DNA of 64,000 bases, taken from contig NZ_CP016450.1 in NCBI RefSeq assembly GCF_001713395.1, positions 248,001 to 312,000 on the forward strand, read 5' to 3'. Below the pieces are notes generated by a model. It searched no databases and was not told the origin of the DNA. It saw nothing but the letters and a program-made list of their open reading frames with translations. The position numbers were made by a program, and so were the translations under genes. Below, piece by piece: positions 25,260 to 30,550 of this stretch (position 1 is the stretch's first letter; each line of letters starts with the position of its first letter). The stretch comes from Sinorhizobium sp. RAC02. Its GTDB lineage: Bacteria > Pseudomonadota > Alphaproteobacteria > Rhizobiales > Rhizobiaceae.

Positions 25260-25553
25260 CTACTTGGTCTTCTCGTCGTTTTTCATCATGGGCTCGGGCA
25301 CATGGTGGACATGGACCGGCATGACGTAGCGATGATTCTTGCGCGGCTTTTTAACCTGCCTTCTGAAGTTCATTGACGCTGCATAGACGGCTGCTTGGTC
25401 CGCTTCATCATGCCCAGAGGACTTTACGATATAGGTGCTCGCATGTTTGCCATTCGCATCCGTTCGGATGCCAACGGTCGCGATTTTTGTCGTGTCGCAG
25501 CCCGACAGGGCAAGCACCGCCAAGCACAGTGCCGACGTAATGATTTTTCTCAC
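25260..25553 (-). CDS. Small predicted lipoprotein
   Basis: 97 aa from GTG. A lipoprotein signal is clear: RKIITSALCLAVLALSGC, with the lipobox Cys after LSG. The mature part reads TTKIATVGIRTDANGKHASTYIVKSSG, then a basic stretch and the tail PVHVHHVPEPMMKNDEKTK. No family recognised. The start codon GTG at 25553 follows a GGGGA box; a 29-codon longer frame to 25640 has no signal peptide logic. Confidence 0.6.
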   Translation of the reverse strand: MRKIITSALCLAVLALSGCDTTKIATVGIRTDANGKHASTYIVKSSGHDEADQAAVYAASMNFRRQVKKPRKNHRYVMPVHVHHVPEPMMKNDEKTK

Positions 25554-25690
25554 GATGATCCCCGATTTCCCCAAATGCGTGCAATCTCCTACGAGAAGTT
25601 TTCTACTTCGGCAAGAGTCAATTTGTGGCTGTTGCCTCAAGTAGTTGACCGCTCTTCAGTGCGTCGCTTTCAGGTGCTATCGGTTGGGGC

Positions 25691-26095
25691 ATGTACCCAT
25701 CTCCGACCATCGTCCCCGGCCGATCCTGCGGCACCTGCACGCTCTGTTGCCGGCTGCCGGACATTGATCTTTTCGAGAAGCCCGCGAATGTCTGGTGTCG
25801 GCATTGCATCGCGGACAAGGGCTGCTCGATCTATGCGGATCGGCCTTCGGTCTGCCGGGATTTCCTCTGTCTGTGGATGACCGATGAGGCGCTAGACGAG
25901 GCATGGGCGCCATCCCGCTCGCATATGATGATCTACCGGCAGGGGCCGCAGATTACAGTGCTTGTCGATCCTGACCACCCCGACATCTGGCGAAGCGAGC
26001 CGTATCACGCGCAATTGCATCGATGGGCTCGCAAGGCCGAACCGGCTGGCGGCTACGTTATCGTCTTCTGGCGTGACGACGTGTTCAAGCTCTGA
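25691..26095 (+). CDS. YkgJ-type cysteine-cluster protein (putative Zn/Fe-binding)
   Basis: 134 aa. Cysteines CGTCTLCC (residues about 13-20), CRHC, GCSIYADRPSVC and FLCLW form the CxxC-rich YkgJ/CxxCxxCC pattern of proteins proposed to chelate a metal ion; their reaction is not known. The RPSVCRDF segment is the most conserved part. It has no signal peptide. It is convergent with a gene of unknown family. Codon use is like the rest of the window. Confidence 0.75.
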   Translation: MYPSPTIVPGRSCGTCTLCCRLPDIDLFEKPANVWCRHCIADKGCSIYADRPSVCRDFLCLWMTDEALDEAWAPSRSHMMIYRQGPQITVLVDPDHPDIWRSEPYHAQLHRWARKAEPAGGYVIVFWRDDVFKL

Positions 26096-26114: not shown

Positions 26115-26963
26115 TCATGGTCTTTGGGGGCGACGCCCGAAGACAGCGGTTTTTCCCGGGTTGGAGGCGACCTGCCGGATCGATGGCGGCGTCGGTGAGC
26201 GTTCGCGTGCTGCCGATCCTGGCAAGCGATAATGGGTGTGCGGCACGTAGATAAGGTCGTGTTCCGCGACGATCACGACCATGCTGTGCGGCAGGTCGAG
26301 GTTCGCCAGGCAGTCGCGCATGAAGCGGTGAAACTCGACGGCGATCAGCGCGTTGAAAACCACCTCCGCATAGGCCAGCGGTTCGTGGGCGGCTGTGCTT
26401 GTGCCTGTCGGCGTAACCTCGGTCACAAAGCCATAATGGTAGTGGTCGCCGCGCGGGATTGTCGCCGCCAGTGCCAGCACGTCGTGCATGCCGTCGATCG
26501 GGGCGGATTCGATTGTATCGAACGCGCCCTGCCATGCGCTACCGACCGCGTTGCACTCATCCGCGATCTCGGCATCGGTCTTCGCCAGGAAATCATAGAC
26601 CCCACGGTTGTAGAGGCTGACCTCGACACCCTGGTGGAAACGCCCCGCCGCATCGACGGCGCGCTCGTGCGCGGAGAGGTCAAAGCCAAGACCGGTGAAG
26701 GTCTCGGGCATTCCCGGCTGGTAGCCGGCGTGGCGAAAGGCTGCATTGGTTGTCCGCGGGATCTCGCCTGCCTCGTCGCTGATGCGAAGGTCGAGAACCG
26801 GATCGAAATTTCTGACGGGCAGATCTTTCAGGATTGCTGCAAGCTCGTCCTTGCCGTTCGAAAAGGCGCGTTGCGCGACGATCTCCCGGGTGAGAGCGAA
26901 TATCTCGGATTTCCACGCGCGGAACGCCTCGATGAGCCTTGCGCGCTCGCTGTCCATCGTCAT
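26115..26963 (-). CDS. Conserved-looking protein of unknown function (282 aa)
   Basis: I do not recognise a family. The protein is soluble, without signal peptide or membrane segments. Helical N-terminus (ERARLIEAFRAWKSEIFALTREIVAQR), a middle with many acidic residues and aromatic patches (GFDLSAHERAVDAAGRFHQGVEV, GDHYHYGFVTEV), then HSMVVIVAEHDLIYVPHTHYRLP. Histidines and acids cluster in HERAVD, DHYHYG and HTHYR, which might bind metal. The start at 26963 has a GGAGG box eight bases upstream; the open frame to 27041 does not. It is divergent from the DGPF-sigma operon across a 191-base region. Confidence 0.55.
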   Translation of the reverse strand: MTMDSERARLIEAFRAWKSEIFALTREIVAQRAFSNGKDELAAILKDLPVRNFDPVLDLRISDEAGEIPRTTNAAFRHAGYQPGMPETFTGLGFDLSAHERAVDAAGRFHQGVEVSLYNRGVYDFLAKTDAEIADECNAVGSAWQGAFDTIESAPIDGMHDVLALAATIPRGDHYHYGFVTEVTPTGTSTAAHEPLAYAEVVFNALIAVEFHRFMRDCLANLDLPHSMVVIVAEHDLIYVPHTHYRLPGSAARERSPTPPSIRQVASNPGKTAVFGRRPQRP

Positions 26964-26994
26964 GGGAGGGGCCTCCGTTTCGACCTTTCCTAAC

Positions 26995-27004
26995 ATTCCG
27001 GAAT
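26995..27004. promoter_or_regulatory. Palindromic element ATTCCGGAAT between two divergent genes
   Basis: Perfect 10-bp palindrome flanked by TAA, 31 bases upstream of the 282-aa gene's start. The same half-site ATTCCGG recurs at 27092-27098, on the sigma-operon side of the intergenic region. A regulator bound at both sites could link the two divergent units. No regulator is identified. Confidence 0.3.
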
Positions 27005-27105
27005 TAAGATATTTCCTGCTCCGTCGCGCAGACTGAGACAAGCCGGGCTGATGGCCGGCGCTGCCGGCTGTTTCTGCCGATCATCAAAAATATTCCGGTG
27101 CACCC

Positions 27106-27132
27106 TGTCGGCTGAGACGCTACTCCTACGTC
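27106..27132 (+). promoter_or_regulatory. Predicted ECF42 promoter in front of the DGPF-sigma operon
   Basis: TGTCGG at 27106-27111 and CGTC at 27129-27132 with a 17-base spacer, 22 bases before the start codon. The reported ECF42 promoter is TGTCGA at -35 and CGA/TC at -10. The identical arrangement occurs before the SRPBCC gene at 28794. Confidence 0.65.
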
Positions 27133-27154
27133 TTTCAACCAACGGGAGTTCCCC

Positions 27155-27529
27155 ATGCTGTATGCCGTTCTTTGTTACGATAGCGAAAGTGAAGTCAGCG
27201 CCTGGTCTAAGGAGCTGGACGACAAGGTCATGGCCGATCTCGGCGCGGTCAACCAGAAATATGCCGAGGCTGGCAAGCTGGGTCCCGTGGCGCGGCTGAT
27301 GCCGACGACGGCGGCCGTGACCGTGCGCAAGGGTGCCACGGACGATATCGTCATGGACGGGCCCTTTGCCGAAACCAAGGAACAGTTCCTCGGCTTCTTC
27401 GTCCTGCAGGCGGAAACGCTGGAGGAGGCGATCACCTTCGCCCGCGAACTTTCCGCCGCCAATCCGGCCAATGGGACTTATGAAATCCGGCCGCTGCAGT
27501 TCTTCAATCCGGGGGTACCGATAACATGA
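27155..27529 (+). CDS. DGPF/YCII-domain protein
   Basis: 124 aa. A YCII-like ferredoxin-like fold of the DGPF subgroup: MLYAVLCYDSE, the signature VMDGPFAETKEQFLGFF (residues about 68-84) and the C-terminal YEIRPLQFF. Members of this group are almost always next to ECF42-type sigma factors; their biochemical role is unproven. A GGGAG box precedes the ATG. The stop overlaps the sigma start (ATGA), so the two are translationally coupled. Confidence 0.88.
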   Translation: MLYAVLCYDSESEVSAWSKELDDKVMADLGAVNQKYAEAGKLGPVARLMPTTAAVTVRKGATDDIVMDGPFAETKEQFLGFFVLQAETLEEAITFARELSAANPANGTYEIRPLQFFNPGVPIT

Positions 27530-28782
27530 CAGAGCTTGCCTGGATCGATCTGGCACTGACTTCGGCTCGGCCGCAGGCCATGGGGGCGCTTCTGCGCTAC
27601 TTCCGCAACCTCGACCTCGCGGAGGAGGCCTTTCAGGAGGCCTGCCTTCGTGCGCTGAAGACCTGGCCCGACAAGGGCCCGCCGCGCGATCCGGCAGCAT
27701 GGCTGATCTTCGTCGGCCGCAACAGCGGCATCGACCAGGTGAGGAAGCGCGCCAAACACCAGCCGCTTCCGCCCGAGGAGGTGCTGTCCGATCTGGAGGA
27801 TACGGAAAGCGATCTCGCCGACCGGCTGGACGGCGCGCATTACCGAGATGATATCTTGCGGTTGCTGTTCGTCTGCTGCCATCCGGACCTGCCGGCCACA
27901 CAGCAGATTGCACTGGCGTTGCGCATCGTTTCCGGCCTTACAGTCAAGCAGATCGCCAAGGCGTTCCTCGTTTCGGAAGCGGCGATGGAGCAGCGCATCA
28001 CCCGGGCGAAGGGGAAGGTGGCAGCCGCCGGCATTCCCTTCGAGACGCCGGATGCCGTGGCGCGCGCCGAACGGCTCGGCATCGTCGCGGCGATGATCTA
28101 TCTCGTCTTCAACGAAGGCTATTCGGCCGGCGTGCCGGAGAGGGCGGATGCGCCCTTCTGTGCGGAGGCGATCCGGCTTTGCCGATTGCTGCTAAAACTC
28201 TTTCCCTCCGAGCCGGAGATCATGGGGCTGACGGCGCTCATCCTCATCCAGCATTCGCGGCTTGACGCCCGCTTCGACAAGGACGGCCAGATCGTTCTCT
28301 TGGAGGACCAGGACCGTGCGCTCTGGGATCGCGGGCTGATCGACGAGGCGCTGGTGCTGATCGACAAGGCGATCCGGCATCGCAAGCCCGGCGCCTTCCA
28401 GATACAGGCGGCGATCGCAGCCCTGCATGCGCGCGCCGCGACGGCGGCGGAGACGGACTGGCTGCAGATCGACCTGCTCTACCAGACGCTGGAGCGCCTT
28501 CAGCCGTCGCCGGTGGTGCGGCTCAATCGGGCCGTTGCAGTTTCGAAACGCGAAGGGCCGGAGGCGGCGCTGGCGCTCATCGAGCCGCTGGCGGACAAAC
28601 TCAACGGCTACTTCTATTTTCACGGCCTGCGCGGCGGCCTGCTGAAACAGCTTGGCCGCTACCGCGAGGCCCACGAGGCCTTCGACCGCGCCATCGCGCT
28701 TGCCACAACCTCGGCGGAAGCGGCGCATATCCGCCAGCATCTCGACAGCGTGCAGCGCGAGATGGCTGCCGCCGAAAAATAA
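27526..28782 (+). CDS. ECF RNA polymerase sigma factor, ECF42 type with long C-terminal TPR-like extension
   Basis: 418 aa, more than twice the size of a plain ECF sigma. Region 2 (RYFRNLDLAEEAFQEACLRALKTWPDKGPPRDPAAWLIFVGRNSGID, about 22-70), region 4 (LALRIVSGLTVKQIAKAFLVSEAAMEQRITRAKGK, about 125-165), then a helical TPR-like C-terminal domain from about 190 (DUF6596 region YLVFNEGYSAG, LCRLLLKLFPSEPEIMGLTALILIQ, LDQDRALWDRGLIDEAL). In this group the C-terminal extension replaces an anti-sigma factor for control and is needed for activity; no anti-sigma gene is adjacent here. The DGPF partner and promoter elements fit the group. Confidence 0.9.
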   Translation: MTELAWIDLALTSARPQAMGALLRYFRNLDLAEEAFQEACLRALKTWPDKGPPRDPAAWLIFVGRNSGIDQVRKRAKHQPLPPEEVLSDLEDTESDLADRLDGAHYRDDILRLLFVCCHPDLPATQQIALALRIVSGLTVKQIAKAFLVSEAAMEQRITRAKGKVAAAGIPFETPDAVARAERLGIVAAMIYLVFNEGYSAGVPERADAPFCAEAIRLCRLLLKLFPSEPEIMGLTALILIQHSRLDARFDKDGQIVLLEDQDRALWDRGLIDEALVLIDKAIRHRKPGAFQIQAAIAALHARAATAAETDWLQIDLLYQTLERLQPSPVVRLNRAVAVSKREGPEAALALIEPLADKLNGYFYFHGLRGGLLKQLGRYREAHEAFDRAIALATTSAEAAHIRQHLDSVQREMAAAEK

Positions 28783-28793
28783 TCGGCTTTCGA

Positions 28794-28820
28794 TGTCGGG
28801 TTGGCCGCTTGCCGGGCGTC
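28794..28820 (+). promoter_or_regulatory. Predicted ECF42 promoter in front of the SRPBCC gene
   Basis: TGTCGG at 28794-28799 and CGTC at 28817-28820, 17-base spacer, 43 bases before the ATG. It is identical in hexamer, tetramer and spacing to the element at 27106, while the spacers themselves are unrelated, as expected for a real promoter rather than a duplication. Confidence 0.6.
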
Positions 28821-28863
28821 CTTGATACGAACCGACCAATCATATTCCACCGAGGAGACAGAC

Positions 28864-29349
28864 ATGACCGACACCGCCGAAATCAAGCCCACCAACAACC
28901 GCGAACTGGTGCTGACCCGCGTGCTGAACGCCACGCCCGCCCAGCTCTTCAAGGCCTGGACGACGCCGGAAATCCTGAAGGAGTGGTTCATGCCGAAGCC
29001 GTACGCGATTGCCCTTGTCGAAATGGAGCCGCGTGACGGCGGCAAGTTCCGCACCGTCATGACCGGCCCGGACGGTTTCCACATGGACAGCACGGGTGTG
29101 TTCCTGAAGGTGGAGAAGGATCGGCGCATCATCACGACGGATGCCTTCGGCCCGGACTGGAAGCCGACCGAAAAGGCCTTCTTCAGCGCCGAAATCCTCT
29201 TCGATGATCTCGGCAACGGAAAGACCCGCTACACCGCGATCGCCCGCCACTGGACTGTCGAGGATTGCGAGGCGCACGAGAAGATGGGGTTCCACGAGGG
29301 CTGGGGCCAGGTGGCAGGCCAGCTCGAAGAGGTTGCCTCCAAGCTTTGA
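28864..29349 (+). CDS. SRPBCC/AHSA1-domain protein
   Basis: 161 aa. START/SRPBCC fold of the activator of Hsp90 (AHSA1) type: [26 protein letters not shown], then [19 protein letters not shown] and the C-terminal [17 protein letters not shown] helix. Such proteins bind hydrophobic ligands; the ligand here is unknown. GAGGAG box seven bases before the ATG. The gene lies 81 bases after the sigma gene with its own ECF42-like promoter. SRPBCC and DGPF genes are frequent companions of ECF42. Confidence 0.85.
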
Positions 29350-29355
29350 GGTGAC

Positions 29356-29382
29356 GAGCGGGGCGGAAAACCGCTCCGTTTT
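29356..29382 (+). terminator. Candidate terminator after the SRPBCC gene
   Basis: Stem GAGCGG (29356-29361) with CCGCTC (29371-29376), followed by CGTTTT. The stem is short but GC-rich and lies seven bases after the SRPBCC stop. Confidence 0.5.
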
Positions 29383-29488
29383 CGTTCGGCCGCGATCGCC
29401 CTGTAAACACACTGTTTCCCGATCTGCCCTTTCAACCTGCCACTGCCGGCCATATCTCTGGGAAAATCTCTCTCTTCTGGAACATCCC

Positions 29489-30550
29489 ATGGAACTTGGC
29501 CTCTATACATTTGCCGATGTCGATCCCAATGCCGCCGACAAGGGGCGGGAAGGGGAGCGACGGCTGAAAAACCTCCTCGAAGAGATCGAACTTGCCGATC
29601 AGGTCGGGCTCGATGTCTTCGGGCTTGGTGAACATCACCGAGCGGACTATGCCGCCTCGGCGCCGGCCGTGGTGCTGGCGGCTGCCGCGGCGCGCACGAA
29701 AAACATCCGGCTCACGAGTGCGGTGACGGTGCTGTCGTCGGACGATCCGGTGCGGGTCTTCCAGCAATATTCCACCGTCGATCTCATTTCCGGTGGCCGG
29801 GCCGAGATCATGGCGGGGCGGGGCTCGTTCATCGAATCCTTCCCGCTCTTCGGCTATGCGCTCGATGATTACGACCAGCTTTTCGAGGAAAAACTCGATC
29901 TGCTGCTTGCGCTGAACGAGAGCGAGAAGGTCTCGTGGACCGGCGTGATGCGGCCGCCGCTGGCAGGGCTTGGCGTCTATCCGCGCCCGGCGCATGGCAG
30001 GCTGCCGATCTGGATTGCCGTTGGCGGCACGCCGCAATCGGTGGCGCGCGCGGGCGCCTATGGCCTGCCGCTGGCGCTTGCCATCATCGGCGGCACGCCG
30101 TCGCGCTATGCACCGTTGTTCGATCTCTACCGCGAGGCGGCACGCCGGGCGGGGCAGGACGAGGCAAAATTGAAGACCAGCATCAACGTGCACGGCTTCA
30201 TTGCGGACAGCACGCAGGCGGCGGCAGACGCCTTCTACGGGCCGCAGGCCGAGGTGATGAACCGCATCGGCCGCGAGCGCGGCTGGGGGCCGACGAGCCG
30301 GGCGCAGTTCGACCAGTCGATCGGTCCGACCGGCCATCTCTTCCTCGGCGATCCGGAGACGGTGGCGAAGAAGATCGTCGACCATCAGCGGATTTTCCGC
30401 AACGATCGCTTCCTGCTGCAGATGGCGATCGGGTTGATGCCGCATGACCAGATCCTGCGCGGCATCGAGCTTTACGGCACCAAGGTTGCGCCCCTGGTGC
30501 GCGAAATGCTGGCGGCGGAACAGAAGGACGCAGTGGTTGCTTCCGCCTGA
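29489..30550 (+). CDS. LLM-class flavin-dependent oxidoreductase
   Basis: 353 aa. Luciferase-like TIM barrel: [86 protein letters not shown], and [28 protein letters not shown]. The flavin is FMN or F420; FMN is likelier in this lineage. The substrate is unknown. The first ATG with the family's start MELGLYTF is at 29489; the frame is open to 29141 but upstream reading overlaps the SRPBCC gene. It is followed by a GC-rich hairpin and map. Confidence 0.88.

Follow-up and report, generated by a model that had tools for sequence, protein, structure and literature searches.

The window, i.e., the whole 64-kb stretch of DNA analyzed here, belongs to a genome of 6.63 Mb in three contigs that was treated as Shinella (Rhizobiaceae) in our comparisons. 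At its center of interest is a two-gene operon coding for a YCII/DGPF protein and an ECF42-type sigma factor, the genes of which overlap by 4 bases. It is followed by a gene for an AHSA1/SRPBCC ligand-binding protein and, downstream of that, by one for an LLM monooxygenase of the Atu2307/SP_0267 family (Table 1). An earlier note, made from the DNA letters, had placed the same promoter, TGTCGG-N17-CGTC, in front of both the operon and the SRPBCC gene. Both copies (hereinafter P1 and P2, at 27106-27132 and 28794-28820) are exact, and they share hexamer, tetramer and spacing with spacers that are unlike each other, as had been claimed. P1 lies 22 nt from the ATG of the YCII gene (27155) and P2 43 nt from that of the AHSA1 gene (28864). 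The A/T tract of P2 sits on the last codons and the stop of the sigma gene, i.e., the promoter is embedded in the end of a reading frame. Further upstream of the operon (window 25691-26095) is a gene for a small protein rich in cysteine, which matches a CxxCxxCC metal-chelating family below threshold (E 0.062).

Table 1. Features of the locus (window coordinates) and predicted dispersed targets in the window genome (contig:position)
Feature	Position	Strand	Basis
A/T tract of P1 (UP-element-like; -18 to -10 from the -35 hexamer)	27088..27096	+	Sequence; at least 6/9 A/T at the same offset in 77/77 P1 sites
P1, ECF42-type promoter TGTCGG-N17-CGTC of the YCII-sigma operon	27106..27132	+	Exact in sequence; kept in 77/80 named loci, 75 exact
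YCII/DGPF protein, 124 aa, contains DGPF	27155..27529	+	Pfam YCII 1.2e-18
ECF42-type sigma factor, 418 aa: sigma-70 r2, r4, DUF6596, C-terminal TPR-like repeat	27526..28782	+	Pfam domains; 69-96% identical to the 23 closest matches elsewhere
A/T tract of P2	28776..28784	+	Sequence; at least 6/9 A/T at this offset in 43/48 P2 sites
P2, TGTCGG-N17-CGTC then CTTG, AHSA1 promoter (motif itself 28794-28820)	28794..28824	+	Sequence
Transcription start predicted for P2, 9 nt past CGTC	28829	+	Analogy with the mapped SMc01149 start (PMC6180224, Table 1)
AHSA1/SRPBCC ligand-binding protein, 161 aa, predicted target	28864..29349	+	Pfam AHSA1 2.5e-27; solved relative 1xfs
Two VOC-type proteins, 3-dmu-9_3-mt family	C1:331918, C1:447682		Pfam
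Third VOC protein, 3-dmu-9_3-mt and Glyoxalase matches; YjdN-like below the model cut-off	C1:1906845		Pfam
Ble-like VOC protein	C1:2046682		Pfam
DUF1428 protein	C1:459236		Pfam
RibD_C protein	C1:430594		Pfam
Two GSTs	C1:1458586, C3:435595		Pfam
Alpha/beta hydrolase, signal-peptide-like start (by eye)	C1:1484349		Pfam

The domain architecture of the sigma factor bears out its earlier assignment to ECF42. Pfam recovers two sigma-70 regions, Sigma70_r2 (1.8e-11) and Sigma70_r4_2 (7.5e-10), and no further one, and a long C-terminal extension runs for about 250 residues past region 4. Scanned alone, this extension matches DUF6596 (1.4e-31), TPR_2 (29.1 bits, cut-off 27) and TPR_14 (27.9, cut-off 23.5); when the full-length sequence is scanned, the TPR matches no longer reach their cut-offs (TPR_2 25.6), and there is one clear TPR-like repeat only. 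The YCII/DGPF gene adjoins that of the sigma factor, as is characteristic of the group. The ECF42 consensus of Streptomyces reportedly comprises TGTCGA and CGA/TC. The group promoter, its -35 element containing TGTCG- and its -10 element CGTC, recurs here with the hexamer, tetramer and spacing of the promoters of Sinorhizobium meliloti RpoE10. Also in keeping with the earlier note, no anti-sigma factor is evident: a Pfam scan of five neighboring ORFs (25260-25640, 25691-26095, 26115-27041, 28864-29349 and 29489-30550) gave no anti-sigma match, a scan which an undescribed type would escape.

Conservation and abundance of the P1 and P2 motif

The two promoters were sought in 80 named loci of relatives only at set distances from the sigma gene. 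P1 is found in 77 of them if TGTCGR and CGWC are allowed, 75 being exact, and the remaining three match at 9/10 bases with a spacing of 17 too; where present, it lies 419-473 nt upstream of the sigma gene. P2 is present near the end of the sigma gene in 48/80 loci, with a spacer that varies from locus to locus and a constant hexamer, tetramer and spacing. Thirteen of the 20 Shinella loci have an exact P2, and another has one with a single mismatch. In the other six, both P2 and the AHSA1 gene are absent, the latter being judged on the first 107 bases past the sigma stop, where the next start codon is that of the LLM gene. The AHSA1 protein of the window shares 50% identity with its AHSA1 counterpart at the equivalent position in Sinorhizobium saheli.

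Abundance tells a different story for the bare motif. P1 and P2 are the only exact N17 copies in the window, in which the spacings N13 and N19 also occur twice each, and the relaxed pattern yields 7 matches against 3.4 expected, a count reached by 6/100 shuffles. Genome-wide, there are 25 copies of the bare motif against 17 of the reversed pattern, and the spacings from 14 to 20 pooled give 400 copies, with N17 (25) under their mean of 57. Enrichment of the bare motif was accordingly dropped as proof. Because a CG-rich motif is ill served by a reversed pattern as its control, N16 and N18 spacing controls were added. The earlier note had named random genome-wide frequency as the observation that would tell against its proposal: the bare motif does occur at such a frequency, but the extended promoter described below does not. 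Hence, it is the comparative evidence, which is strong, and not abundance that leads us to regard the motif of P1 and P2 as real.

The extended promoter and its predicted targets

Alignment of the sites reveals two additional elements, namely an A/T tract about 10-18 nt upstream of TGTCGG and, at P2, a CTTG following CGTC, which is present at 27/48 P2 sites as compared to 3/77 P1 sites. We counted 85 extended sites, TGTCGG-N17-CGTCCTTG, distributed over 20 of 21 Shinella genomes, as against 3 for the reversed pattern; none is in G006, the sole Shinella of the 21 that lacks the sigma factor (a single genome). In Shinella, the N18 form with CTTG gives 45 matches, two of which come from the sigma-less genome, and the N16 form 9.

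The surroundings of these matches differ sharply. An ORF start with a Shine-Dalgarno-like stretch lies within 90 nt of 73/74 N17 sites in Shinella and 34/40 in other genera, as compared to 7/31 N18 and 0/9 N16 matches; likewise, an A/T tract (at least 6/9) accompanies 67/74 and 24/40 N17 sites, respectively, and 0/31 N18 and 0/9 N16 matches. For these counts, 74 of the 85 extended Shinella sites were checked for downstream genes (the other 11 being P2 sites at known sigma loci), along with 31/45 N18 and 9/9 N16 matches, and the 40 sites from other genera were hand-picked among the matches listed. Two of the 73 counted ORFs look wrong in frame or start, one having no Pfam match (L135) and the other Pfam matches only near its end (L153). 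In twenty further control regions with the bare motif at other spacings, an ORF with a Shine-Dalgarno-like stretch lies within 200 nt in 2/21. Judged by such sequence context, the N18 and N16 matches are a different population from the N17 sites.

Family-wide, across 247 genomes, the extended site is present in 81/89 genomes with a close orthologue of the sigma factor (240 sites), eight having none, as compared to 12/158 without one (14 sites; p=4e-42). A close orthologue is defined here by an E-value below 1e-135, a cut-off chosen after viewing the gap in E-values. With one genome per genus as a control for kinship, the figures are 32/36 and 5/73, respectively (p=5e-18). The genomes with only a distant kind of the sigma factor contain the extended site in 4/42; three genomes (G007, G010 and G046) carry, beside the close type, another ECF42-like sigma gene that is distant (38-40% identity). 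This co-occurrence of sigma factor and site, computed here together with the promoter anatomy, gene positions and conservation, is an association across the family. A causal link between the two is provided by S. meliloti: overexpression of RpoE10 (SMc01150, ECF42) induced the motif-bearing operons SMc01149-01148 and SMb20475-20474, with six genes up in all (at least two-fold for four) and SMc01151 unchanged (PMC6180224). SMc01149 is predicted to bind hydrophobic ligands and SMc01148 is glyoxalase-like (PMC6180224); the SMb20475-20474 operon is of a glyoxalase-like kind as well. The induction of SMc01149, at the position of which three Sinorhizobium relatives have an AHSA1 gene, upholds the proposal of an SRPBCC target.

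In the window genome, 11/25 copies of the motif are gene-positioned, lying 22-141 nt upstream of well-formed genes in the same direction, and CTTG is present at 6/11 of these. The nine dispersed targets (Table 1) comprise eight apparently single genes and a ninth with a doubtful second ORF. Matches in L001, L045 (minus) and L047 were left out by judgement: each has an ORF and a Shine-Dalgarno-like stretch, but inside a larger ORF in another frame. The 108 target proteins collected from the genomes are dominated by a few Pfam families, which overlap: Glyoxalase (31), 3-dmu-9_3-mt (22), DUF1428 (19), Ble-like_N (18), Abhydrolase_1 (12), AHSA1 (9) and RibD_C (7), with GST domains and DoxX_2 in four each and GyrI-like in one. 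As 73 of these come from closely related Shinella, they are not independent; among the 35 from other genera the leading families are AHSA1 and 3-dmu-9_3-mt (7 each), RibD_C and Glyoxalase (5 each) and DoxX_2 (4). A perfect 10-base site is retained at the orthologues of the DUF1428 gene in 18/20 genomes and of the VOC gene in 14/16, with drifting spacers.

The earlier description of a compact regulon, confined to the DGPF protein, its sigma factor and the SRPBCC protein, thus proves too small given the 11 gene-positioned copies, provided that the sigma factor reads them. That control extends no further than the YCII-sigma operon and the AHSA1 gene, the other copies being there by chance, would agree with the commonness of the bare motif, 14/25 copies of which were not counted as gene-positioned, and with the mere six genes raised by RpoE10. 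However, the nine dispersed sites precede genes of small-molecule enzyme families, the perfect sites are kept at the DUF1428 and VOC orthologues, extended sites follow the sigma factor across the 247 genomes, and S. meliloti itself has a dispersed target in SMb20475-74 (PMC6180224), making this restricted regulon improbable. It is still harder to credit that another factor, i.e., a repressor or an ECF41-group sigma with a similar promoter, mainly reads the sites with the ECF42 gene as a passenger: the mapped promoter of the S. meliloti ECF41 factor RpoE9 does have a similar TGTCAC and CTCGTC (PMC6180224) and the site occurs in 12 genomes without a close orthologue, but the sigma-less Shinella has no extended site, the 158 genomes without a close orthologue have few, and it is RpoE10 that induced operons with this motif.

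Two side observations concern the mobility and loss of such units. Thirteen loci (L193, L196, L199, L201, L206-L209, L211, L212, L221, L224 and L238) share an ECF42-like site downstream of the sigma gene, after which comes CTAGGTTC or a sequence very near to it (CTAAGTTC, CTAGATTC). The distance of this site from the start of the sigma gene ranges between about 1.6 and 10.7 kb, as if one promoter-plus-gene unit had relocated. Genome G006 lacks, besides the sigma gene, the DUF1428 gene present in the other 20 Shinella and the MKVTQ-type VOC gene, as in a naturally occurring regulon knock-out; the MKVTQ-type VOC gene is also absent from four genomes that keep the sigma factor.

Predicted control of the system and autoregulation at P1

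We consider it very probable that the locus is the core of an RpoE10-type ECF42 system, which reads P1, P2 and about nine scattered promoters and is devoted to the handling of small molecules. The sigma factor would recognize the A/T tract followed by TGTCGG, 17 nt and CGTC, often with CTTG, and act at its own YCII-sigma operon (P1), at the AHSA1 gene (P2) and at the approximately nine dispersed promoters. CTTG is dispensable, SMb20475 being induced by RpoE10 without it (PMC6180224). The C-terminal DUF6596/TPR-like extension would set the activity of the sigma factor in place of an anti-sigma factor, probably via a partner, YCII being a candidate. Once a signal arrives, the holoenzyme would open P2 and the dispersed promoters, and the products of the regulon would bind, modify or remove a small molecule. 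We infer that the Shinella sigma factor reads the dispersed sites, and likewise its gating, the signal and any autoregulation at P1.

Self-control of the operon through P1, as the earlier note had it, is doubtful: in S. meliloti, SMc01151 was unresponsive to RpoE10 and its motif overlaps the putative start (PMC6180224), though P1 is nearly invariant. The operon might instead be transcribed mainly from another start, with the P1 motif overlapping that start. We take this seriously as a possibility without adopting it: in addition to the behavior of SMc01151, it would suit the rarity of CTTG at P1 and a conserved element peculiar to the P1 spacer, G.TACTCCT. Against it, the hexamer, tetramer and spacing are kept in 77/80 loci and the A/T tract in 77/77 sites, a conservation that a housekeeping promoter does not explain, and a consensus scan of window 26900-29600 found no sigma-70-like promoter.

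The spacer element (within window 27112-27128) is complementary to the Shine-Dalgarno sequence of the YCII gene. It or close variants are present in most Rhizobium, Neorhizobium and Shinella P1 loci and absent from Sinorhizobium/Ensifer loci and from the consensus of the other promoters. A hairpin in which TACTCCT of the P1 spacer sequesters the YCII ribosome-binding site was considered and is not supported. The own P1 spacer does pair better than shuffled spacers in 44/51 cases, and better than swapped arms (p=0.014); against shuffles, the controls gave 52/89 (p=0.046) for other promoters and a non-significant 23/36 (p=0.09) for P2. There is no excess of covariation in 46 aligned sequences (0.181 vs 0.170 shuffled, with 70/500 shuffles as high), and RNAalifold returned no consensus structure. 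A housekeeping promoter overlapping P1 was likewise set aside: TTGACG-N18-GATACT is discernible by eye in some Rhizobium loci and is unsupported in the window genome, with no -35-like housekeeping element visible by eye at the Shinella P1.

More tentatively, and with rather less confidence than an even bet would demand, we propose that ECF42 in Rhizobiaceae might govern a dispersed detoxification regulon of around ten units, most of them single genes, whose products together deal with a reactive small molecule. The units would be VOC/glyoxalases, GSTs, DUF1428 and AHSA1 proteins, RibD-type reductases and hydrolases, under a sigma factor with a built-in sensor. The promoter of its own operon, lacking CTTG and bearing a conserved spacer element, would be separately tuned, decoupling synthesis of the sigma factor from the response, and promoter-plus-gene cassettes would enter and leave. 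The promoter definition picks targets, tracks the sigma factor over 247 genomes and indicates consistent families of small-molecule enzymes. It thereby narrows the question of what the widespread ECF42 group does to a short list of genes and candidate compounds, in tractable soil bacteria.

Comparison with known ECF42 systems

Text searches of the main text of openly accessible papers yielded no report of an ECF42 regulon of comparable size in Rhizobiaceae and no phenotype in print for ECF42 in Shinella. The regulon predicted from sequence would be larger than any recorded one that we found; its core motif and gene order are already published.

In Streptomyces venezuelae, Sven_0747, Sven_7131 and Sven_4377 resemble the factor described here in having a sigma core with a TPR-rich extension of about 200 residues and a YCII-type protein alongside (PMC8999054). 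That review describes the extension of the Streptomyces ECF42 factors as essential for activity and the YCII protein as a suspected partner. The discussion of a paper on OrbS mentions a suggestion by which binding of a ligand or protein to the TPR domain suppresses activity (PMC9023288). ECF-10 of Pseudomonas putida, also of the ECF42 group, has a genomic context called similar to that of RpoE10 (PMC6180224); it differs in being tied to stress and antibiotic tolerance and to biofilm (PMC6180224, PMC8999054).

The closest parallel is RpoE10 of S. meliloti. The earlier note had thought a rhizobial version of this circuit little studied, which is wrong in part, as the same motif is already in print for RpoE10 (PMC6180224); a later paper deleted SMc01150 along with other ECF genes (PMC9561847). 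The two systems share the order of YCII, sigma factor and ligand-binding protein, and glyoxalase-like targets. TGTCGG-N17-CGTC stands at all three promoters listed for RpoE10, the spacing of 17 being counted here from the letters in Table 1 of PMC6180224, and RpoE10, too, has no identifiable anti-sigma factor. S. meliloti is outside our set of loci, in which three Sinorhizobium relatives have an AHSA1 gene at the position of SMc01149. The gene after AHSA1 differs: in Shinella it is the LLM monooxygenase, with no motif in between, whereas in the Sinorhizobium relatives it is a SnoaL/glyoxalase gene. In these relatives (L229, L237 and L259), that gene fuses SnoaL_3 and Glyoxalase domains; SnoaL-like domains are known as the C-terminal sensors of ECF41 sigma factors (PMC9023288). 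Finally, the systems differ in size, with 11 gene-positioned copies predicted here as against the three promoters listed for RpoE10 in PMC6180224.
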